Assembly: GCA_947448325.1 (NCBI GenBank)
Contig: CANFMK010000002.1
Location: 1-51,984, forward strand
From: Comamonadaceae bacterium
GTDB lineage: Bacteria > Pseudomonadota > Gammaproteobacteria > Burkholderiales > Burkholderiaceae_C
DNA: 51,984 nt
Reading direction: 5' to 3'
The notes below the pieces were generated by a model, which worked only from the letters and a program-made list of their open reading frames with translations, was not told the DNA's origin and searched no databases. Shown in pieces: positions 39,175 through 51,984 of this stretch (position 1 is its first letter; every line of letters begins with the position of its first letter). Both the position numbers and the translations under genes were made by a program.

Positions 39175-40842
39175 TTACTGCAGCAGTTTCATGACGGTTT
39201 GCATATCGGTATTGGCCTGAGCCAACACCGCAGTAGCGGCTTGTTGCATGATTTGGGTTCGCGCCAACTCGGTACTGGCGGCAGCGTAATCCGCGTCTTC
39301 AATCTGGCTGCGCGAAGCCTCTTCGTTCATCGATACGTTAGTCAAGTTATCGACCACATGCTGCAAACGATTCATCACCGCGCCCATGGTGGAGCGGCTG
39401 GTGGCTACCGCATCGAGTGCCACGTTGACTTTTTGAATCACGTCATTAGCAGATGCTACTGTTGCAACATTGGCTTGCGCGGTATCTCTGGTCAGTCCGC
39501 CAGTGATATTCCCATCTTTGCCGTAATCGGCCATGTCGATGGTGATAACTTGATCAGGTGATGGCCCCACTTGGAAGCTCAATCGACCAATATTTTGAGG
39601 CGTCACAGGGCCCGGCTTAAAGCCCAAACCTTGTTCGATCTTGGTGATGGGATCGATGTTGGTCAAGTGATCCAAAGGATTGGGGTTTGCAACAGTAGCT
39701 TCACCTGCTTTGAGTGTGAAGGCACTGTTGGATGTCATGGTGACCGTGCCGTAAACGGTAGATGCACCGACAGCGCCAACACCCCCAAGAGAACCGGTTG
39801 CAATGCCTGTCACACCTGGCGGATTGGAGGTCGTGGCGGTGTCCATGGCCAAACCCATATCACTCGCAGAGACCTCATTTTTGTCGTACCAGACTGAAAG
39901 GTTGCGACCATCAACGGTACTCAGGCTCAAACCGCCTGTGCCGGGGTCACCCGCTTTCACGCCATGCGTAAGTGTTTTGGCGTTGATGGCGTCGATCACA
40001 TATTGCCTGCGTTCAACCGCGGTTTGTCCTTTGGTCAAGTTCAGGTCAATGGCTTCACCGTTGACGTACAAGGTGGTTTGTATGGATTTATCCGGATCAA
40101 CCGTTGTTTTGCTGGCCGTGATGATGGCGGGATTGGCTGTGGCTGTTACTCCAGTCTCTGCCGTCTTTGAATTGATCGCCGCTGCAATGGCAATGGCGCT
40201 GGCAGCGGGGTCACTGGAATCAGCATAGTCATTGCTGACGCCATCTGCGGTTGATGCTGGGATGGCTGTAGATTGATAGTTCGGTAAACCATCCGCATCG
40301 GTATCACCGATGGGGATATCAATGGCTAAATCGGATTCTTGCAATCCAACAGCCGTACCGCCCGCAGCAACTGGGGCCCTCGGCGATGTGGTGGAGATGG
40401 GAACGCCAACAGGCGTACCCGCTTTGCCATTCAAAATCGGAAAGCCGTTCCACTCATGGGTGTCGGCAATGCGCACAATTTCCTGCTTGAGTTGCTGGAA
40501 TTCTTGATCCAGGTAACCCCGCTGCTCTGGCGAGTAGGTGGCGTTGGCTGCTTGTACCGCCAACTCGCTCATGCGCTGCAGCATGGTGGTGATGTCGTTG
40601 GTCGCACCTTCAGCCGTTTGGATGAACACGATTGCGTCACCCGCATTGCGCACAGACTGATTCAGGCTCTGTATGTTTTGCGTCATTCGCGCGGCAATCG
40701 CCAAACCAGCGGCATCGTCCTTGGCGGAGTTGATGCGTTTGCCGGACGACAACTGCTGCATGGCCACGCGCGATTCGCGCTGTGAAATCTTCAATGCGCC
40801 CTGGGTATAAAGCGCTTTGATGTTGGTATTGATGACTGTCAT
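39175..40842 (-). CDS. fliC: Flagellin, long form (555 aa)
   Basis: A flagellin with conserved ends. The N-terminal D0/D1 region (MTVINTNIKALYTQGALKIS; INSAKDDAAGLAIAARMTQN) and the C-terminal region (ASRSQIEDADYAAASTELAR) are typical. Between them is a ~300-residue surface-exposed insert (about residues 145-450) rich in Thr, Ala and Gly, making it twice the size of the other three flagellins here. The last residues (MQTVMKLLQ) also differ from the others, which end in LALLK or LSLLK. It follows a small TPR gene by 64 bp and shares its sigma-54 promoter. Probably a minor or specialised filament subunit. Confidence 0.92.
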   Translation of the reverse strand: MTVINTNIKALYTQGALKISQRESRVAMQQLSSGKRINSAKDDAAGLAIAARMTQNIQSLNQSVRNAGDAIVFIQTAEGATNDITTMLQRMSELAVQAANATYSPEQRGYLDQEFQQLKQEIVRIADTHEWNGFPILNGKAGTPVGVPISTTSPRAPVAAGGTAVGLQESDLAIDIPIGDTDADGLPNYQSTAIPASTADGVSNDYADSSDPAASAIAIAAAINSKTAETGVTATANPAIITASKTTVDPDKSIQTTLYVNGEAIDLNLTKGQTAVERRQYVIDAINAKTLTHGVKAGDPGTGGLSLSTVDGRNLSVWYDKNEVSASDMGLAMDTATTSNPPGVTGIATGSLGGVGAVGASTVYGTVTMTSNSAFTLKAGEATVANPNPLDHLTNIDPITKIEQGLGFKPGPVTPQNIGRLSFQVGPSPDQVITIDMADYGKDGNITGGLTRDTAQANVATVASANDVIQKVNVALDAVATSRSTMGAVMNRLQHVVDNLTNVSMNEEASRSQIEDADYAAASTELARTQIMQQAATAVLAQANTDMQTVMKLLQ

Positions 40843-40906: not shown

Positions 40907-41374
40907 TCAGTTGCGTTGTGCCGCCGCCGGCAGATGGTGGGTGCTGTCAGCCATACTGAGAAGCTCTTGCAAAAGCACAGGGTCTGCAGGCCATGCGCGC
41001 AGACCTTCTTCCAGCACCAGACGGGCCTGGGGCAGTTCCATATTGCAGAACAAAGCGCGGGCCAACATTTGGTAGGTCATGGGTTGCACCTGGTCTTGCT
41101 GAACTTTGCGCAGGTCTTGCAACAATTCAATGGTCAAAGGCCAGTCTTGCTGGGCAGCGGCCAGCAAACCTGCAATGGCCAATACATCTTCGCTTTCAGG
41201 ATGCAGGCTCAAACCGGCATCGGCCAAAGCCTGTGCCAGTTCCACCTTGTCATGCGCCAACAGCCATTGAATGCCTGTGCGGAAATCGGCAGGCGTGAAC
41301 CTTGAAACCGCGTTCAAATCCAATGACTGAACGTCCACGAATTGCTGCAGGCTTTGCTGAATTTGTACTTTCAT
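40907..41374 (-). CDS. Small TPR protein paired with the long flagellin
   Basis: A 155-residue, wholly helical protein with about three tetratricopeptide-like repeats (GIQWLLAHDKVELAQALADAG; DVLAIAGLLAAAQQDWPLTI; MTYQMLARALFCNMELPQAR) and a short polar tail. No signal peptide. A close paralogue (46732-47199) also sits directly upstream of a flagellin gene; both share Y/HPESEDxLAIAGLLA and QPMTYQMLARAL. The size and layout resemble class II type III secretion chaperones (LcrH/SycD). A role as flagellin-binding chaperone or regulator is inferred from position only. Its leader holds a sigma-54 promoter and two palindromic boxes. Confidence 0.75.
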   Translation of the reverse strand: MKVQIQQSLQQFVDVQSLDLNAVSRFTPADFRTGIQWLLAHDKVELAQALADAGLSLHPESEDVLAIAGLLAAAQQDWPLTIELLQDLRKVQQDQVQPMTYQMLARALFCNMELPQARLVLEEGLRAWPADPVLLQELLSMADSTHHLPAAAQRN

Positions 41375-41440: not shown

Positions 41441-41456
41441 AGCAAAATAAGTGCCA
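41441..41456 (-). promoter_or_regulatory. Sigma-54 promoter of TPR1 and long flagellin
   Basis: On the - strand TGGCACTTATTTTGCT fits TGGCACG-N4-TTGC(A/T) with a single mismatch (position 7). The predicted start near 41430 gives a 56-base leader. Confidence 0.82.
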
Positions 41457-41512: not shown

Positions 41513-41528
41513 TGGCACCCTAATTGCT
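41513..41528 (+). promoter_or_regulatory. Sigma-54 promoter of the LicD-like / CDP-ribitol operon
   Basis: TGGCACCCTAATTGCT fits the sigma-54 consensus with one mismatch (position 7). The predicted start is near 41539, 26 bp before the GTG. Half-boxes TGGCAA (41535) and GTCAA (41543) and a 6-bp dyad CTTACT/AGTAAG surround the start point. Confidence 0.8.
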
Positions 41529-41564
41529 TCTTACTGGCAACTGTCAAAAGTAAGAGGTGTCCCT

Positions 41565-43262
41565 GTGTCTGAACACAAAATGAAAATTGCCCTGTCCCAA
41601 TTGAAGCCGTTGGTGGGTGGGGAGCACTTTGATGTGCTGGAAACCATCATCATGGAGCACGGACTGGACTTCATCATTGGCAATGAATTCATTGATTTTT
41701 GCCGCCGCAAAAAAGAACCCCGTATCGTCGTCTTTGTGGCGACGTTGGGGATGCACAACTCAACGCAACCGGCCAAACCCGAGCTGCTGGAAGCTTGCTA
41801 CAGCTCGATTTTGCAAAAAGAGATGCGCTTGAAGAACGAGCGCAATGGCGTGACGCATATCTTGCGAGCCACATTGCAAAGCATCATGGACGATGCCGAT
41901 ATTGCGCGCGATAAAAAGACTTTTCAAAAATTGACCGGTTCTGACAATGATTGGCACTTGGCTTTTGAGCTCTGCTTGGACCATCACCAAGAAAGTAATG
42001 CATATCAATTAATCTATAAACGACTTGAAAAAGGGAATAACCCAGAGTTGGTTTTGATGTGCGCCCGCTCATTGGTGGAAAGATCTATCGATGTCACAGG
42101 AACGGACAATATCGACTGGGATAACTGGATTCAATGCCAAAAGAGGATTCACCAAGAGCTGATTAAATACAAGATTGCTCATGTGCCCAGTAAAATGGCC
42201 ATGTTGATTGCTCAATATTATTCATTTATCAATGAACATGACGCATCGATCGAGTGGTATCGCAAAGCCAAAGACGACCATGTCTTGGCAACATACCAAA
42301 TTGCGCAGTCTTATGGCAACAAGAAAGACTTTAAAACAGCGCTGAGTCACTTGGATCAATTTTTACGAAAAATGTGCGATCAGACGCATGAATGGATCGA
42401 CAAGAACTTTAAAAATGCTGATTCCACAGGTAAGAAACATGAAGGCTTGGAATTCAACAGCCATGCAGCCACCAAGGCACTGACCGATCTTCAAAATACA
42501 TTGGACGAAGTCAATACCAAAGCGTTTTTGGTTTCGGGGACCTTATTGGGTTATGCCCGGCAAAAGTCATTTTTAAGCCATGACAAAGATATTGATGTGG
42601 GTATTTTTGAGGCCGATAATATTTTCGATGTCATCAATACCTTGATGTCTAGCGGAAAATTCAGTGTCAAAAAGGGATATTTCAATATAGAACGCATGTA
42701 CCAAATGCCGGTGGTGCATTTGGCAACTGGTTTTGCCATTGATGTATTTATTTACCACAAGGATGGCGATGGTTTAGTAACTGGGGTGCAAAGTAATTTT
42801 GGGTATACGCAAAACTTCAGATTTTCTCAGTTTGACTTGCAAGAAATCGAATTCATCAATACCCGTTTTTATGCCCCTGCGGATATTGATCAAAACCTGA
42901 CTGAAAACTTTGGCGACTGGAAAACCCCAGACCCCCACTTCATTTCCCACCTGCAATGCCCGACGACAGTGGACGTGGGTGGCGAGGTCTACATGATGGT
43001 GTGCCGACTCGAAATGGTTCGCTCCATCGTCGAGGGTAAAAAAATCAAAGTGGATCGGATTGTGAATATCTTGCGTGATCATGCGCATGCTGAGCAGGCC
43101 ATGGAGCCTGCTTTGATCCAAGATTTGTCATCACGGTTTGGCACGGCTAGCGAAAAATCCAGCGACGTACCGTTGAATTCAAATCCGCATACAAACAGTC
43201 AGTTGTTGACACAGTTGCATCAATTGAGTTCAAAGGCAGCCATGGTAAATTCCGATGCCTGA
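41565..43262 (+). CDS. LicD/fukutin-like phosphotransferase with helical-repeat N-terminus
   Basis: A 565-residue protein. The first ~310 residues are helical, with TPR-like units near 215-275 (AQYYSFINEHDASIEWYRKA; YQIAQSYGNKKDFKTALSHL). From ~320 comes a LicD-type nucleotidyltransferase-fold domain: FLVSGTLLGYARQKSFLSHD followed by KDIDVGIF, the family's G-T-LLG-R...HD-x-D-x-D signature with its metal-binding aspartates, and later AIDVFIYH. LicD proteins transfer phosphocholine; human FKTN and FKRP of this superfamily transfer ribitol 5-phosphate from CDP-ribitol. The start is GTG with AGAGG seven bases before it. It overlaps the downstream CDP-ribitol-type synthase by 8 bp, so a ribitol-phosphate transferase is the best inference. 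Confidence 0.8.
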   Translation: MSEHKMKIALSQLKPLVGGEHFDVLETIIMEHGLDFIIGNEFIDFCRRKKEPRIVVFVATLGMHNSTQPAKPELLEACYSSILQKEMRLKNERNGVTHILRATLQSIMDDADIARDKKTFQKLTGSDNDWHLAFELCLDHHQESNAYQLIYKRLEKGNNPELVLMCARSLVERSIDVTGTDNIDWDNWIQCQKRIHQELIKYKIAHVPSKMAMLIAQYYSFINEHDASIEWYRKAKDDHVLATYQIAQSYGNKKDFKTALSHLDQFLRKMCDQTHEWIDKNFKNADSTGKKHEGLEFNSHAATKALTDLQNTLDEVNTKAFLVSGTLLGYARQKSFLSHDKDIDVGIFEADNIFDVINTLMSSGKFSVKKGYFNIERMYQMPVVHLATGFAIDVFIYHKDGDGLVTGVQSNFGYTQNFRFSQFDLQEIEFINTRFYAPADIDQNLTENFGDWKTPDPHFISHLQCPTTVDVGGEVYMMVCRLEMVRSIVEGKKIKVDRIVNILRDHAHAEQAMEPALIQDLSSRFGTASEKSSDVPLNSNPHTNSQLLTQLHQLSSKAAMVNSDA

Positions 43263-44598
43263 TCAACACGCCGTCATTTTGCTGGCCGGTGGTTCCGGCT
43301 CGCGCATGGGCAGTGACCAAGCCAAGCAATTCATTCGCGTCGCGGGTAAACCGGTCCTGGTCCACAGCTTTGATGCCTTGCGGCAGCACTTGCCAGAAGC
43401 GTTCATTGTGGTGGTTGCCCCGGTAGAAGCGCTGGCCCATGTGAAAGACCTGATTGGCAGTGACCCGTTGGCCAAAGTTGTACCGGGCGGCAGTTCAAGA
43501 CAGGCTTCTACGCTGCAAGGCCTTAAAGCCCTGGCCGAGCGCAATCCGCACAACGTCATCATCCATGATGCGGCGCGCCCTTTCATCAGCGGTCAGATCA
43601 TCCACGATGTGGTCGATGCTTTGGTGAAATGCGAGGCCGTGGATGTGGCCATCCCGACAACGGACACCATCATTGTCGAGCGCGATGGTTTCATTCAAAA
43701 CATCCCGCCACGGCTGCACATCATGCGCGGCCAAACACCGCAAGCCTTCAGGTACGCCAGCTTGGTTCGCAGCTATGCCGAAATCGGCGAAGAACAGCTC
43801 GACAAGTACACCGACGATTGCGGCATTTACCTGGCGTGCCACCCCTTTGGCCAAGTGCGCATCGTCAAAGGGCATGAAGAAAACATCAAAATCACCACCC
43901 CTGTGGACCTGGTGCTGGCCGACGAATTGTTTCGCATCCGCATGCCCGCCAGCGAAAAAGAAAATCAAGGCATATCGGTCCGTGGCAAAAAGGTGTTGAT
44001 CTTTGGCGGCACGGCCGGGATCGGCAAAGCCTTGTCTCAATTGCTGGAGGATGCGGGGGCACAGATTGTGGTCACTTCGCGGTCCAAGGGCTGTGATATT
44101 TCTCAAGAAAAAGATGTCCGCAAAGCCATCAGCGATGCCGATGAAGCCATGGGTGGTATTGACTACATCGTCAATTCAGCAGGCATTTTGGATACCGGAT
44201 TGATCACTGAGCAAGACGGGGTGGACATGGCCCAGCAAATTGCCGTGAACCTGACGGGCGCAGCCTATATTGCCAAATGGGGTTTCGCCCCTTTGGCCCA
44301 GTCCAAGGGCATGCTGTTGCAATTCTCTTCTTCGTCTTACACCCGTGGGCGTGCCAACTCCGTGATTTATGCCGCGACCAAAGCCGCCATTGTGAACATG
44401 ACGCAAGGTTTGAGCGAAGAGTGGGCCGAGTCGGGCATCAGGGTCAACTGCATTGTGCCTGGTCGTACTGACACAGAGATGCGTCGGGTGAATTTTGAAA
44501 ATGAAGCGCAGGCTTCACTGAGTAATCCATTTGAGGTGGCGATCAAGGCTGCAAAATTAATGAGTTCACAGGTGAATGGTCAAATCGTGAGAGCTTAA
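43255..44598 (+). CDS. Fused cytidylyltransferase-SDR, Acs1/Bcs1-like CDP-ribitol synthase
   Basis: A 447-residue two-domain enzyme. Residues 1-225 are an IspD/TarI-type cytidylyltransferase: LLAGGSGSRMGSDQAKQF, HDAARPFI, PTTDTI, and ENIKITTPVDLVLAD. Residues ~240-447 are a short-chain dehydrogenase: nucleotide-binding FGGTAGIGKAL, NSAG, and catalytic Tyr372/Lys376 in YAATK. This order matches the bifunctional ribulose 5-phosphate reductase/CDP-ribitol pyrophosphorylase of Haemophilus capsule loci (Acs1/Bcs1), which makes CDP-ribitol from ribulose 5-phosphate, NADPH and CTP. A plain IspD of isoprenoid synthesis is unlikely, because of the fusion and the lack of ispF. It is translationally coupled to the LicD-like gene. 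Confidence 0.83.
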   Translation: MPDQHAVILLAGGSGSRMGSDQAKQFIRVAGKPVLVHSFDALRQHLPEAFIVVVAPVEALAHVKDLIGSDPLAKVVPGGSSRQASTLQGLKALAERNPHNVIIHDAARPFISGQIIHDVVDALVKCEAVDVAIPTTDTIIVERDGFIQNIPPRLHIMRGQTPQAFRYASLVRSYAEIGEEQLDKYTDDCGIYLACHPFGQVRIVKGHEENIKITTPVDLVLADELFRIRMPASEKENQGISVRGKKVLIFGGTAGIGKALSQLLEDAGAQIVVTSRSKGCDISQEKDVRKAISDADEAMGGIDYIVNSAGILDTGLITEQDGVDMAQQIAVNLTGAAYIAKWGFAPLAQSKGMLLQFSSSSYTRGRANSVIYAATKAAIVNMTQGLSEEWAESGIRVNCIVPGRTDTEMRRVNFENEAQASLSNPFEVAIKAAKLMSSQVNGQIVRA

Positions 44599-44622
44599 TA
44601 ATAATATTTGAGCGCTGAAATT

Positions 44623-45768
44623 TCAAAAAATAGATCGAATCGCTGCGTCGAAATTATCAACACTCGCCTGGAAAGTCCGTGCATCTTTGAATTTTTGATC
44701 CCTGAATTTCATTCTATTTTTAAATAAAGGGTCGTATTGAATTTCTTTTAAAAAGTTTGAAAGTGGAGTGCTCTCATAATCCCAAAGGTAGCAAACACTT
44801 CTCAGCTCTTTATTGAAATTCATAGATAATTTAGTTCGAGAAAATGGCGCAATAATGGGTTTTCCTGTAAATAGATACTCGCTCGTGACACCAGAGGCGT
44901 CACAAATAGCCGCACTGGAGAGATTGAAGAGATTAGCTTTGTCAGATGAAGGATTGCTTGCTTTTTCAAGTAACTGATCGGACAGTTCTTTGTACTCTTT
45001 TTGCCGCAGTCCCATGGCTGGGTGCGGATGATAATAAAATGAAAATTTTTTCTTACTAATTTCTTTAGTCAGTGTTTTGTGAATTTTCTCAAGAGAGGAG
45101 TAATTCATGAGGCTACTGGGGCCTTCAAATGTAGGGATGTAAAGTATATTTTTAAAAGGGATCGGTTGATCAATAACATTTAAATCTGGAAAAATAGGGG
45201 CGCCCATTTTTAAAAAATGATCCACAGGAAGATGAATATTATTTTTAGCGTAACGAAGTTCAGCTATATCATCGGCAATCAGGCTGTGGTCGTAAATTTT
45301 CTGGACACGTGTGGAAGATGATGATTTGTCAGAGTCGCCGTGACCAATATGAATATGCTTGATATTCTTATTGGTATGATCTTCTTTGGGGAGCGTATAA
45401 AAATACATCCAGTTGCGAGAGATATTTGCAGGATAGAGCAGGGCTTTAATACTGGTTATATAACCAAGATCATTGATGTTGAATCCGGTTTCTTCGCTAA
45501 ATAGTGGGATGGAAGTTTTTAAGTGATTGCTATTTTGCTGGTGATAATAACTTTTGTAGGAGTAGCAAACAATACATGCTTTGAGTGTGGTCTTTGTCAA
45601 GTAAGCCTCCCACACTTTGAAGTGGTGTGGGTCAAATTCGCCTGCAAAGACCAAGATGATCTCAGGTTCTAATGCCTTGATTTTTTCAAAAGCATTCTCT
45701 TTCAGCAGCGTAAAAGACGTCCCCTCGCGTGAGCCTACAGCTTGTCCATTTAAAAAGATAGGATTCAT
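44623..45768 (-). CDS. CDP-glycerol/ribitol phosphotransferase-like protein (TagF/TarB fold)
   Basis: A 381-residue protein with GT-B-type polyol-phosphotransferase marks: HIHIGHGDSDKS (compare the HG...K motif of TagF), TFEGPSSLMNYSSLEK, FYYHPHPAMG, and AAICDASGVTSEYLFTGKPI. Such enzymes move glycerol- or ribitol-phosphate from the CDP form. No membrane segment is present. The gene is strikingly AT-rich (about a quarter G+C in 44701-44760, roughly 35-40% overall by eye), unlike its neighbours, which suggests recent transfer. It is convergent with the Acs1-like gene (24-bp gap), and its start lies 14 bp after a terminator behind a flagellin gene, so it seems to depend on read-through. The ATG at 45768 has only a weak GGGA before it. 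Confidence 0.75.
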   Translation of the reverse strand: MNPIFLNGQAVGSREGTSFTLLKENAFEKIKALEPEIILVFAGEFDPHHFKVWEAYLTKTTLKACIVCYSYKSYYHQQNSNHLKTSIPLFSEETGFNINDLGYITSIKALLYPANISRNWMYFYTLPKEDHTNKNIKHIHIGHGDSDKSSSSTRVQKIYDHSLIADDIAELRYAKNNIHLPVDHFLKMGAPIFPDLNVIDQPIPFKNILYIPTFEGPSSLMNYSSLEKIHKTLTKEISKKKFSFYYHPHPAMGLRQKEYKELSDQLLEKASNPSSDKANLFNLSSAAICDASGVTSEYLFTGKPIIAPFSRTKLSMNFNKELRSVCYLWDYESTPLSNFLKEIQYDPLFKNRMKFRDQKFKDARTFQASVDNFDAAIRSIF

Positions 45769-45781
45769 GAAAATTCCCAAA

Positions 45782-45827: not shown

Positions 45828-46658
45828 TTACTTCAATAATGACAGCACACCTTGCTGCGATTGGTTGGCTTGCGCCAACATGGCTGTTGCCGCTTGGGCG
45901 ATGATTTGGCTACTGGCCAGCTTGGTTGTTGCCACAGCGTAGTCCGTATCCAAAATCTGACTGCGAGATGCGGTCGTGTTTTGAATCACGTTGTTCAGGT
46001 TGTCGGCGGCATAGGTCAGCTGGTTGATACCTGCACCCAGAGTGGCGCGAGCCTCGTTGATGGATTGCAGGGCAGTATCGATTGCGGATAGCGCGGACAT
46101 GGCGCCACTGGCGTCGCTGATGCTTTCACCTGAAAGCGCCAAGCCAGATGAGGATGTTGTGACTTTGGGAATCACGACCGTGATGGTTTGTCCACTGGCC
46201 GCGCCAACCAGAAAATCATACGAACCAGAAGTATTGACGCTTTGATCCAGAATGGCATCGCCATTCCATGTGGTTTGAGTCGCAATATTTTCAATTTGCT
46301 TGGTGAGAGCAGAAAATTCCAATTGCAAATAGCCGCGTTGCGCCGAGCTATAGGTGGCAGTGCCTGCTTGTACGGCCAATTCACGCATGCGCTGGAGCAT
46401 GTTGGTCTGCTCAATCATCGCGCCTTCAGCGGTTTGCAGCATGCTGATGCCGTCATTGGCGTTGCGAACAGCCTGTGTCAAACCCCGAATGTTCGAAGTC
46501 ATGACGTTGGTAATGGCTAAACCTGCGGCATCGTCTTTGGCCGAGTTGATGCGTTGGCCGGTGGAGAGCTGCTGCATGGCCGATGAAAGGGTACGGTTGT
46601 TCACCTTCATCGCATTCTGCGAGAACAAGGCGTTCACGTTGGTGTTGATAACTGTCAT
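45828..46658 (-). CDS. fliC: Flagellin, short form (276 aa), TPR-linked
   Basis: A flagellin with the conserved start (MTVINTNVNALFSQNAMKVN), INSAKDDAAGLAIT, and the conserved end (ASRSQILDTDYAVATTKLAS, then SQQGVLSLLK). The central variable part is only ~80 residues (QTTWNGDAILDQSV to SGAMSALSAI). It lies 73 bp after the second TPR gene and a strong terminator follows it. CAGGAG precedes the start. No promoter of its own is evident, so it is probably read from the sigma-54 promoter at 47268. Confidence 0.95.
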   Translation of the reverse strand: MTVINTNVNALFSQNAMKVNNRTLSSAMQQLSTGQRINSAKDDAAGLAITNVMTSNIRGLTQAVRNANDGISMLQTAEGAMIEQTNMLQRMRELAVQAGTATYSSAQRGYLQLEFSALTKQIENIATQTTWNGDAILDQSVNTSGSYDFLVGAASGQTITVVIPKVTTSSSGLALSGESISDASGAMSALSAIDTALQSINEARATLGAGINQLTYAADNLNNVIQNTTASRSQILDTDYAVATTKLASSQIIAQAATAMLAQANQSQQGVLSLLK

Positions 46659-46731: not shown

Positions 46732-47199
46732 TTAGTTACGCGTCAAATTGGCCGGCATGGCGTTTTCAGCCACGGCCATTTCAGCTTGCTCTGCCATCAA
46801 AATAGCATGATCGGGGTAGGCTTTGAGGCCTTCACCAATGATGTAACGGGCTTGGCTCAGATCCAGGTTGCACCACAGTGCGCGGGCCAACATCTGGTAA
46901 GTCATGGGTTGAATCAAACCTTTTTGCACGGTGCACAGGTCGCTCAACAGTTCAATGGCCAATGGCCAGTCCATACGGGTAATGGCCAGCAAACCGGCAA
47001 TGGCCAAAATGTCTTCGCTCTCGGGGTACAGGCTGATGCCGGCATCGCACAGGGCCTGTGCCAAGTCCATTTTGTCTTCCGTCACCAAGGCTTGAATGCC
47101 TTCGCGGATGTCGGAGGGGGAAAATTGAGAAATGTCTTTGAGAGAGGGTGCGCCAACGGTGGCCACTTCTTGCATGTAGCTTTGGAATCCTGGGGTCAT
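46732..47199 (-). CDS. Small TPR protein paired with a short flagellin
   Basis: A 155-residue paralogue of the protein at 40907-41374, identical in length. Shared segments include SPSDIREGIQALVTEDKMDL, YPESEDILAIAGLLA, QPMTYQMLARAL and the ending xAxxxRN. About three TPR-like helix pairs; no signal peptide. Both copies stand directly upstream of a flagellin gene behind a sigma-54 promoter, so the TPR-flagellin unit was duplicated as a pair. A cognate cytosolic flagellin chaperone or a regulator of filament assembly is likely but inferred. Start ATG 47199 has AGGAG. Confidence 0.75.
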   Translation of the reverse strand: MTPGFQSYMQEVATVGAPSLKDISQFSPSDIREGIQALVTEDKMDLAQALCDAGISLYPESEDILAIAGLLAITRMDWPLAIELLSDLCTVQKGLIQPMTYQMLARALWCNLDLSQARYIIGEGLKAYPDHAILMAEQAEMAVAENAMPANLTRN

Positions 47200-49845: not shown

Positions 49846-51984
49846 TCAAAATGGCAATGCTGTCACTTGATCTGTCGTCATATTTTCAATCTGAGCAGAT
49901 GTCAATGCAGCCGTCTGCGCACTGGTCAATACAGAGATTTGTTCCGTAGAGAATGATGAGATTTGATCTGTACTGATATTGGCCATTTGCGCCGTGGTCA
50001 ACGCATTGATTTGTGCAGTCGTCAAGGCATCGATGTCTGCAGTTTCCATGCTGTTGATCTGTGCAGAGGTCAAGGAAGCCACTTGAGCTGTGCTCAAAGC
50101 ATCCACTTGCGCTGTGGTCAATGCAACCACCTGATCGGTGCTCAACTGAACCAGTTGAGCGGTGCTCAGGTTGTTGATCTGCGCTGTGGTCATCTCAGCC
50201 AGGTCGGCCACCTCAATCGCGCCCAGTTGTGCACTGGTCAGCGCATTCAGAGCAGAGCTGGTCAAGGCCGTGATTTGGTCAGTGGTCAAGCCGGCAATGG
50301 CATCGGTGGACAAGACCTTCGCTTGTGCAGAGGTCAAGGCTGCGATGTCACGGGTTTCCATCACTGCAACTTGTGCGCTAGACAAGTTAGTCACTTGTGC
50401 CGTTGTGAGGCTGCGCACTTGCGCGGTGGTCAAGGCAACAACGTCATCCGTGGCCATGTTGTTGAGCTGCTCAGAGGTCAACGAGGCGACTTGTGCAGTG
50501 CTCAGTGCTTGTACCTGCTTGGTGGTCAACAACACCATCTGATCTGTGCTGATCGCACTGGCTTGCGCCGTTGTCAGAGCACTGATCTGTGCCGTGGTCA
50601 AGGCTTGCAGGTTGTCGCTGGCCAAGCCATTCAATTGAGCAGATGTCAGCGTTGTCAACTGAGCTGTTGTGATCGATTGAACTTGCTTTGTTGTCAGCAA
50701 TGCCAACTGATCCGTGCTGAGATTGCTGATCTGGCTTGTTTTCAAGCTGCTGATTTGAGCCGTGGTGATCGTTTGGAGGTCATCACTCGACATGTTGTTC
50801 AATTGCTCAGATGTCAAAGCAGTCAGTTGACTTGTGAGCAAAGCTTTCACTTGAGCCGTTGTCAAATTACTGATTTGATCTGTACTCAACAGTATCAATT
50901 GGGCTGTCGTCAATTTGACGACTTGGGCTGTGGTCAAAGCGGATACATCCGCCGTTTCCATGGCTGCGAGCTGATCACTGGTCAAGGCGTTCAGCGCAGC
51001 GCTGGTCAACGCTTGTGTTTGTTCTGTGGTCAATGCCACGATCGCATCAGTGGACAGCACTGCAGCTTGAGCACTTGACAGGGCTGCAACGTCACGTGTT
51101 TCCATCAGCGCCATTTGATCGCTGGTTAAGTCACCCAATTGCGTTGTGCTCAGTGCGCGCACTTGAGCAGTGGTCAAAGTTTGCCAATTGTCACTGGTCA
51201 GGTTGTTGATCTGATCAGACGTGAAGGCCGTGATTTGAGCAGTGGTCAAAGCCTGCATTTGGGCCGTGGTCAACAACGCCAATTGATCTGTACTGATCGA
51301 ATCGAGCTGGGCAGATGTCAGGCTGCGGATTTGGTTCGTGGAGATCACTTGCAGATCATCGCTGGACATGCTGTTCAATTGGTCAGATGTCAACGCAATC
51401 ATCTGGCTGGTTCCCAAGGCATGAACTTGGGCTGTAGTCAGGTTGCTGACTTGGTCGGTACTCAGCAGCGCCAATTGGGCTGTGCTGAGCTTGCTTATTT
51501 GAGCCGTTGTCAATTCGGCAACATCTGCGGTCTCCATGGCTGCGAGCTGGTCGCTGGTCAAGGCGTTCAGGGCTGCACTGGTCAAGGCCTGTGCCTGCGC
51601 TGTAGTCAATGCCACGATGGCGTCAGTAGACAAAGATGCAGCTTGTGTGCCGGACAATGCGGCGACATCACGTGTTTCCAGCAAGGCCATTTGGTCACTG
51701 GTCAGCGCGCTGAGCTGATCTGTACCCAGCGCGCGAACTTGCGCAGTGGTCAGTGCTTGCAGGTTATTGCTGGACATGTTGTTCAGCTGGTCCGAAGTCA
51801 GGGCACTGACTTGATTGGTGCCCAGGGCTTGAATTTGAGCCGTAGTCAAGTTGCTGACCTGGTCGGTGCTCAGCAGTGCCAATTGGGCTGTAGAAAGTTT
51901 GCTCACCTGGCTGGTGGACAAAGCGGCGACGTCTTCGGTCTCCATGGCTGCGAGCTGGTCGCTGGTCAAGGCGTTCAGGGCTGC
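49846..51984 (-). CDS. Giant octad-repeat protein, C-terminal part; start outside window
   Basis: The last ~712 residues of a protein of unknown function; the frame stays open to the window edge. It consists entirely of 8-residue units of the form (S/T)(S/T)-x-(Q/D)-(V/I/L)-x-x-(L/M/I), e.g. TTAQVQAL or STDQLALL, 88 complete copies with no break in phase, then Pro-Phe and stop. I saw no cysteine. Each unit starts with a Ser/Thr and has Gln/Asp three residues later, like a helix N-capping box, so a solenoid of short helices is plausible; a beta-solenoid cannot be excluded. No secretion signal is visible in the part seen. Large extracellular repeat proteins of this composition are usually adhesins, but that is inference. 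The adjacent genes are flagellar. Confidence 0.8.
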   Translation of the reverse strand, partial: AALNALTSDQLAAMETEDVAALSTSQVSKLSTAQLALLSTDQVSNLTTAQIQALGTNQVSALTSDQLNNMSSNNLQALTTAQVRALGTDQLSALTSDQMALLETRDVAALSGTQAASLSTDAIVALTTAQAQALTSAALNALTSDQLAAMETADVAELTTAQISKLSTAQLALLSTDQVSNLTTAQVHALGTSQMIALTSDQLNSMSSDDLQVISTNQIRSLTSAQLDSISTDQLALLTTAQMQALTTAQITAFTSDQINNLTSDNWQTLTTAQVRALSTTQLGDLTSDQMALMETRDVAALSSAQAAVLSTDAIVALTTEQTQALTSAALNALTSDQLAAMETADVSALTTAQVVKLTTAQLILLSTDQISNLTTAQVKALLTSQLTALTSEQLNNMSSDDLQTITTAQISSLKTSQISNLSTDQLALLTTKQVQSITTAQLTTLTSAQLNGLASDNLQALTTAQISALTTAQASAISTDQMVLLTTKQVQALSTAQVASLTSEQLNNMATDDVVALTTAQVRSLTTAQVTNLSSAQVAVMETRDIAALTSAQAKVLSTDAIAGLTTDQITALTSSALNALTSAQLGAIEVADLAEMTTAQINNLSTAQLVQLSTDQVVALTTAQVDALSTAQVASLTSAQINSMETADIDALTTAQINALTTAQMANISTDQISSFSTEQISVLTSAQTAALTSAQIENMTTDQVTALPF
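49852..51967 (-). repeat. 24-bp coding repeats arranged in 168-bp sets of seven
   Basis: Eighty-eight tandem 24-bp units encode the octads. A three-octad linker, TSAALNAL-TSDQLAAM followed by an ET(A/E)DV-type octad, recurs and separates runs of 14, 21, 28 and finally 14 octads, i.e. 2, 3, 4 and 2 sets of seven. Within a set, column 3 is usually STDQ and columns 6-7 TS(D/E)QLNNM-SSDDLQ. Confidence 0.85.

Follow-up and report, generated by a model that had tools for sequence, protein, structure and literature searches.

Why would genes for the handling of sugar-alcohol phosphates stand among flagellin genes? The question is raised by a stretch of 51,984 nucleotides from a Comamonadaceae bacterium (assembly GCA_947448325.1, contig CANFMK010000002.1, positions 1 to 51,984; the window), where three genes of this kind lie between two flagellin genes. 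Our answer, given with moderate confidence from the comparison of sequences, is that the first two of them, which overlap, form a cytoplasmic protein-decoration module placing ribitol phosphate onto flagellin or onto a flagellin-borne sugar. In some relatives a glycerol-type partner gene takes the place of the ribitol-type one, and this donor swap suggests that bacterial flagella can carry sugar-alcohol phosphates. The genes in question are the following (aa, amino acids):

39175-40842, minus strand: flagellin, 555 aa (PF00669, PF00700).
40907-41374, minus strand: small TPR protein, 155 aa, 5' of the flagellin gene 39175-40842 (PF13428).
41565-43262, plus strand: gene 1, two-module transferase, with a helical TPR-like N-terminal domain and then a LicD/FKRP-like catalytic domain (around residues 295-470), 565 aa.
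43255-44598, plus strand: gene 2, cytidylyltransferase-SDR fusion, probable CDP-ribitol synthase, 447 aa.
44623-45780, minus strand: gene 3, TagF-family-like protein, 385 aa (PF04464).
45828-46658, minus strand: flagellin, 276 aa (PF00669, PF00700).

The open reading frames and Pfam place genes 1 to 3 between the two flagellin genes, and the end of gene 1 shares exactly 8 bp with the start of gene 2. The preliminary description of this DNA had reported the three polyol-phosphate genes with their coordinates, their flagellin neighbours and this overlap, and all of it is confirmed. In the survey described below, genomes are designated by G numbers (G000 being the genome of the window) and loci by L numbers. 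By our reading of the junction sequences, the LicD gene overlaps its partner gene by a few bases also in G200, G087, G605, G467 and Octadecabacter arcticus, and in G205 the two genes are apparently free of overlap. Published work is cited by PMC number and is represented by excerpts, to which our statements about it refer.

What does gene 2 make? It has an IspD/TarI-type cytidylyltransferase (PF01128, IspD, residues 6-225, 167.1 bits, cut-off 27) and then an SDR (PF00106, adh_short, residues 280-416, 114.7 bits, cut-off 26.6) in a single protein. This order of domains is that of the Acs1/Bcs1-type CDP-ribitol synthases, Bcs1 of Haemophilus influenzae being a fused cytidylyltransferase-reductase like Acs1. 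Furthermore, the top two PDB matches of its cytidylyltransferase half are ribitol-5-phosphate cytidylyltransferases (4jis, 7e-39; 6xhp, 3.8e-34), with methylerythritol-type names next, so the CDP-ribitol-type synthase that had been proposed for gene 2 is supported. Regarding the cytidylyltransferase domain alone, the identity to gene 2 is 39.2% for a fused cytidylyltransferase-SDR of Parabacteroides (L086), 32.0% for an annotated ribitol-5-phosphate cytidylyltransferase of Staphylococcus and 26.9% for the IspD of the same genome.

Some scores weigh against this assignment. On NF001183 of NCBIfam (D-ribitol-5-phosphate cytidylyltransferase, TarI-type) gene 2 reaches 162.1 bits and three fused relatives 157.7, 165.1 and 151.2, all below the cut-off of 166, although this model covers a single domain and so does not test the fused type of protein. 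In favour of the assignment, the same model at 1e-30 gives no match to the genome's own IspD. The broad IspD model is passed by 3 of the 4 fused proteins scored (gene 2 has 186.8 bits on TIGR00453 ispD, cut-off 181.3), and the tree of cytidylyltransferase domains, with long branches and no resolution, was not used. Since the TarI-side matches have to be set against the pass on the broad model and this tree, we regard gene 2 as a likely but unproven CDP-ribitol synthase.

The pass on TIGR00453 is what would speak for a housekeeping role of gene 2 in isoprenoid synthesis, with methylerythritol phosphate as substrate. Nevertheless, the probability of this is close to nil, given that the genome has a separate IspD on another contig, adjoining an IspF-family gene, that the fused gene occurs in 4 of 90 genomes only and that the two IspD-type domains share 26.9% identity. 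Because of that separate IspD beside the IspF-family gene we rejected the isoprenoid role. The missed TarI cut-off of gene 2 and its relatives would also agree with the activation of another polyol phosphate or another phospho-compound; CDP-threonine, for instance, has been hypothesised for the type A flagellin of Clostridioides difficile (PMC10714395). We give this a small probability, as the two top solved-structure matches are ribitol-5-phosphate cytidylyltransferases and bacterial proteins that join such an enzyme to a ribulose-5-phosphate reductase have been described, H. influenzae being named in the excerpt (PMC4873967).

Gene 1 would be the transferase using this donor. Its LicD domain scores 25.7 bits, above the Pfam cut-off of 22.6, the best stretch aligning 31 residues only, and the motif HDKDID stands at H339-D344, in agreement with the HD-x-D-x-D signature of a LicD/fukutin-like transferase read earlier in this protein. 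H339, D340, D342 and D344, together with the distal D393, are invariant in all six full-length proteins of the alignment, one of which is gene 1 itself. Human FKRP is the best PDB fold match of the gene 1 model, a low-confidence one, and the FKRP-like nucleotidyltransferase fold is found in it. A sequence-only PDB search with the LicD protein gave no match. As for the N-terminal domain, profile comparison related it neither to the small TPR proteins nor to the evident TPRs that G467, G510 and G706 have, and the domain alone (alignment A3), searched in the 90 genomes of the genus, matched once in each of 7 genomes, every time the LicD protein itself. Because only the LicD proteins were returned, a recruiting domain common to them and to other flagellin-modifying enzymes of the genus, which we had considered, was not seen to be shared.

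The strongest link to the flagellum comes from the genus. Among its 90 genomes, G000 counted, the LicD protein is present in 7, and in all of them the gene stands at flagellin genes. The fused synthase (E<=1e-40) is found in four, G000, G205, G200 and G087, always as the neighbour of LicD. The LicD gene of G205 is broken across two contig ends, with the synthase next to the 3' piece. TagD, the glycerol-3-phosphate cytidylyltransferase (TIGR01518, E<=1e-35), is likewise found in four, G173, G189, G196 and G163, and the first three are precisely the LicD genomes that have no fused synthase. In these three TagD scores 168.2, 176.0 and 166.8 bits respectively (cut-off 165.4) and adjoins a flagellin gene; the LicD gene of G196, which is on a separate contig from TagD, is likewise beside a flagellin gene. 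The TagD of G163 scores under the cut-off, and its 16.7-kb contig gave no flagellin. Taken together, a ribitol- or glycerol-type synthase is present in 7/7 LicD genomes versus 1/83 of the others (Fisher p 1e-9 assuming independent genomes, which they are not). A tree of LicD domains, which took in 16 of the 20 described below, separates a ribitol-paired group (G000, G605, G087, G200; support 89/90) from a glycerol-paired group (G173, G189, G196; support 91/88), both with good support although below the strong mark, as expected if the transferase is matched to the donor.

Beside the flagellins of G087 (L016:1-9249, L028) an 845-aa HAD-domain protein and a 594-aa protein without Pfam match are coded after the ribitol-type pair, and pseudaminic-acid-synthesis-like genes (PF02719, PF01041, NeuB) are also found there (L016, L028).

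Is the association with flagella kept outside the genus? With a profile built from six flagellar members, 13 of 399 genomes of the order (1e-15) and 6 of 398 of the phylum (1e-20) gave matches, and adding the genus brought the LicD genomes to 20. LicD is at flagellar genes in 9 of these 20, namely the seven of the genus plus G467 and G605, a share biased upward because the query was built from flagellar members. G467, of another family, has a flagellin gene divergent from TPR-LicD-TagD; G605, of the same family and another genus, has FlhA and FlgM nearby and no flagellin within the 19.9 kb read. In the tree the G467 LicD groups apart from the others, and flagellar recruitment may therefore have happened more than once. 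Around LicD in the other 11 genomes no flagellin was found in stretches of 5 to 20 kb each.

A cytidylyltransferase is present in all 20 LicD genomes, and this share carries no such query bias. It is a cytidylyltransferase-SDR beside LicD in 5, TagD beside LicD in 5 (G173, G189, G436, G467, G671) and TagD elsewhere in the genome, beside another flagellin, in one (G196). In 7 genomes of one genus the cytidylyltransferase domain is in the same frame as LicD (by Pfam in three, by phmmer or tblastn in the others), and in G510 and G706 an IspD-like frame, possibly the housekeeping IspD of those genomes, adjoins LicD. The single-frame loci, with the cytidylyltransferase C-terminal, are L051, L052, L053, L054, L056, L057 and L058; small RTX-repeat proteins (PF00353, seen in L051 and L052) are coded beside such frames. 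In G510 (L055:7570-11158) a TPR-LicD, the IspD-like frame and a RuBisCO-large-chain-like frame stand in a row.

Among 72,556 plasmid records, 6 have a LicD relative (E<=1e-8). One of them, pOA238_118 of the alphaproteobacterium Octadecabacter arcticus 238 (L083), has a flagellin gene, a cytidylyltransferase gene and a LicD-like gene in a row within a flagellar cluster, the cytidylyltransferase being TagD-like (133 bits on TIGR01518, under the cut-off). After this row there is a Stf0-type sulphotransferase gene (L083:9880-10620), possibly a further flagellin modifier. Family-wide, an earlier search had located the LicD protein in 2 of 150 genomes, each belonging to the genus; a scan of viral contigs gave 6 LicD-domain relatives. 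When named-species genomes were scanned with the fused enzyme, 3 loci matched, namely two in uncultured Burkholderiales assemblies (L013, L014) and one by its SDR only.

This wider distribution bears on the main rival explanation, that the two enzymes modify a surface polysaccharide (capsule linker, O-antigen or lipooligosaccharide), their flagellar location being incidental. LicD relatives do occur in capsule or polysaccharide loci of Paracoccus, Phaeobacter and Parabacteroides, but LicD is at flagellar genes in 9 of the 20 genomes and in O. arcticus, although the query came from flagellar members. Cps7C of Actinobacillus, a predicted TPR-LicD enzyme with a catalytic domain resembling FKRP, is a capsule-linker enzyme and uses CDP-glycerol (PMC11666461), and gene 3 is similar in length to Cps7A (385 versus 380 aa; PMC11666461); however, the TagF-like gene is not conserved, and the KpsC/KpsS family is found in only one of nine LicD genomes, weakly (G000, 1.8e-4). 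G000 also has a NeuB/UDP-GlcNAc-2-epimerase surface-sugar locus elsewhere; NeuB (pseudaminic/sialic type) is present in 3 of nine genomes, in one of them weakly. On balance we consider the polysaccharide explanation unlikely, while still a serious one.

Gene 3 has a weak match to PF04464 (Glyphos_transf, TagF family; 25.0 bits versus 22.1, over 102 residues), a PDB sequence search at E<=1 gave no TagF, and the gene was found in 1 of the 90 genus genomes, G000 itself (E<=1e-10). As it is found in G000 only, it lies outside the conserved pair, and a conserved trio was rejected. Of the earlier reading as a TagF-like CDP-polyol phosphotransferase, the family match remains and the place in a conserved pathway does not. 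A bolder idea, which we judge quite improbable, is that short chains like teichoic acids sit on the filaments, made of poly(ribitol phosphate) in this bacterium and of poly(glycerol phosphate) in relatives, and that a change of donor from species to species serves as a switch of antigens or phage receptors. It is raised because Cps7C, of the same TPR-LicD design, makes a glycerol phosphate polymer (PMC11666461), and in G000 the gene 3 protein could then act like Cps7A. The GC content is 44% in gene 1, 38% in gene 3, 55% in gene 2 and 55.6% in the window, the low values of genes 1 and 3 being as in horizontally acquired, exchangeable cassettes.

How would the pair be expressed with the flagellum? 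Two divergent sites, scored on what we take to be the sigma-54 consensus, stand where near-consensus promoters had been claimed:

41441-41456, minus strand: sigma-54-type site facing the TPR-flagellin pair (TPR gene 40907-41374, then flagellin 39175-40842), TGGCACTTATTTTGCT, 11/12 scored positions.
41513-41528, plus strand: sigma-54-type site before the LicD/cytidylyltransferase pair, TGGCACCCTAATTGCT, 11/12 scored positions.

The window has 7 sites scoring this well versus about 1.9 expected by chance per 52 kb (30 simulated sequences). Sites of at least 11 precede the LicD gene in G000, G205 and G087, the one in G087 overlapping the start of the longest open frame, and in G173 one stands before the GT41 gene located 5' of LicD.

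The sequences directly show which domains are present, how the genes are paired, that they lie among flagellins and that the partner gene changes. From this we infer the substrates, the acceptor and the regulation of the module as follows. Gene 2 would reduce ribulose 5-phosphate to ribitol 5-phosphate and convert this to CDP-ribitol, and the LicD domain of gene 1 would move ribitol phosphate from CDP-ribitol to the acceptor. The N-terminal helical domain of gene 1 would dock the enzyme, before export, onto this acceptor, most probably flagellin itself or a sugar that flagellin bears. The two genes are probably expressed under the flagellar sigma-54 programme, and in relatives the same module would be fed with CDP-glycerol from TagD.

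The following points weigh against this module. The gene 1 model is poor (mean pLDDT 57.3, alignment of two sequences) and the TPR score of its N-terminal domain, 19.4 bits, is under the Pfam cut-off of 25.7. Of nine flagellar genomes scanned, only four have a good sigma-54-type site before LicD or its directly upstream gene, and none stands before LicD in O. arcticus; of the co-regulation with the filament proposed earlier, the sites at some relatives' loci speak for it and the other five genomes do not. Flagellin as acceptor is deduced from gene position. No glycosyltransferase for an acceptor sugar was recognised in the window by eye, not all frames being searched, and the GT41 search gave no match in G000.

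Regarding the acceptor, the cluster of G173 (L018:6413-10647) has a TPR and GT41 (O-GlcNAc-transferase-like) gene, with its own sigma-54-type site, directly 5' of LicD. This position suggests flagellin-borne N-acetylglucosamine (GlcNAc) as the acceptor there, in line with type A of C. difficile (PMC10714395). O-GlcNAc transferase as a general acceptor maker was dropped, since GT41 is in 5 of nine genomes (E<=0.001; 4 over the cut-off) and was not found in G000, G087, G189 and G467.

Another protein of the region might be the acceptor, for instance the ALTTAQ-repeat protein of 49846-51984, whose gene neighbours those of the flagellins and a relative of which is also beside the LicD locus of G173. 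We hold this to be very improbable, because among the matches listed for the stretches compared a relative occurs in G173 only, versus flagellin at 7/7 genus loci. The frame at 49846-51984 (minus strand), of more than 700 aa, has 26 matched ALTTAQ stretches (PF20080), reaches the contig end and adjoins the flagellin cluster; its relative in the G173 flagellin cluster is L018 2986-6183.

Regarding the flagellin neighbours themselves, paralogous 155-aa TPR proteins are coded at 40907-41374 and 46732-47199, each preceding a flagellin gene; they have relatives near flagellins in L016, L018, L019, L020 and L021 and a weak similarity, under the cut-off, to type III secretion proteins. Flagellins of 555 aa (39175-40842) and 877 aa (L021:2110-4743) have large central inserts, and short flagellins of about 275 aa are in the same clusters.

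Several known systems resemble parts of the proposed flagellin-decorating module. Human ISPD with FKTN/FKRP, which acts on alpha-dystroglycan, also combines an IspD-type CDP-ribitol enzyme with LicD-domain transfer of ribitol phosphate to a protein-borne glycan, and bacterial ISPD-LicD fusions exist (PMC4873967). FKRP is moreover the best fold match of the gene 1 model. The parallel with this human route drawn earlier is supported as regards the pairing of a CDP-ribitol-type synthase with an FKRP-like LicD at flagellin loci. The human system differs in belonging to the eukaryotic secretory pathway, and the excerpt mentions no TPR domain or reductase fusion (PMC4873967). Cps7C/Cps3C with Cps7B of Actinobacillus pleuropneumoniae are alike in the predicted TPR followed by a LicD/FKRP-like domain with essential Asp residues, and in a CDP-polyol donor from an enzyme of the same cluster; there, however, the polyol is glycerol, the acceptor a capsule linker and the setting a capsule cluster, whereas here we find flagellar loci and a ribitol-type supply in 5 genomes (PMC11666461). 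Caulobacter FlmG also has an N-terminal TPR domain, which binds flagellin, and a C-terminal transferase for cytoplasmic flagellin modification, but it is a GT-B glycosyltransferase adding pseudaminic acid, without LicD (PMC7591256).

In the type A modification of C. difficile and its type A-like counterpart in Pseudomonas aeruginosa, a flagellin sugar carries a phosphodiester-linked group, and the proposed route uses a cytidylyltransferase and a phosphotransferase; in C. difficile the phosphotransferase is TagF-like and the group contains N-methylthreonine, and no LicD or polyol is mentioned in the excerpt (PMC10714395). H. influenzae Acs1 shares the fused cytidylyltransferase-reductase (PMC4873967), and the L086 pair of Parabacteroides has a LicD gene directly after its cytidylyltransferase-SDR; Acs1/Bcs1 and this pair belong to capsule or O-antigen loci. 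Finally, flagellin islands of two enterobacterial strains have predicted ribitol-biosynthesis genes (PMC4875605) and one of Geobacillus has tagD and pgs (PMC5109656), but these are genomic predictions and LicD pairing is not mentioned in the excerpts (PMC4875605, PMC5109656). The open-licence PMC literature, subscription papers being outside its scope, gave in the parts covered no assignment of a LicD enzyme to flagellin, no pair of the ISPD-FKRP kind at flagellin genes and nothing on a swap of donors. The earlier remark that no flagellin modification of this kind was known has to be limited, as phosphodiester-linked flagellin groups are known (PMC10714395) and ribitol genes have been predicted in flagellin islands (PMC4875605).

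If the proposed module is real, bacteria would have an equivalent of the human ISPD-FKRP route that works on a secreted protein, and polyol phosphates would be a new chemical class of flagellin decoration, with the choice of donor readable from the genes. The mass shift of flagellin would then follow the partner gene, +214 Da for ribitol phosphate versus +154 Da for glycerol phosphate. The filament surface on which such groups would stand is the contact face for phages, grazers and immune receptors.

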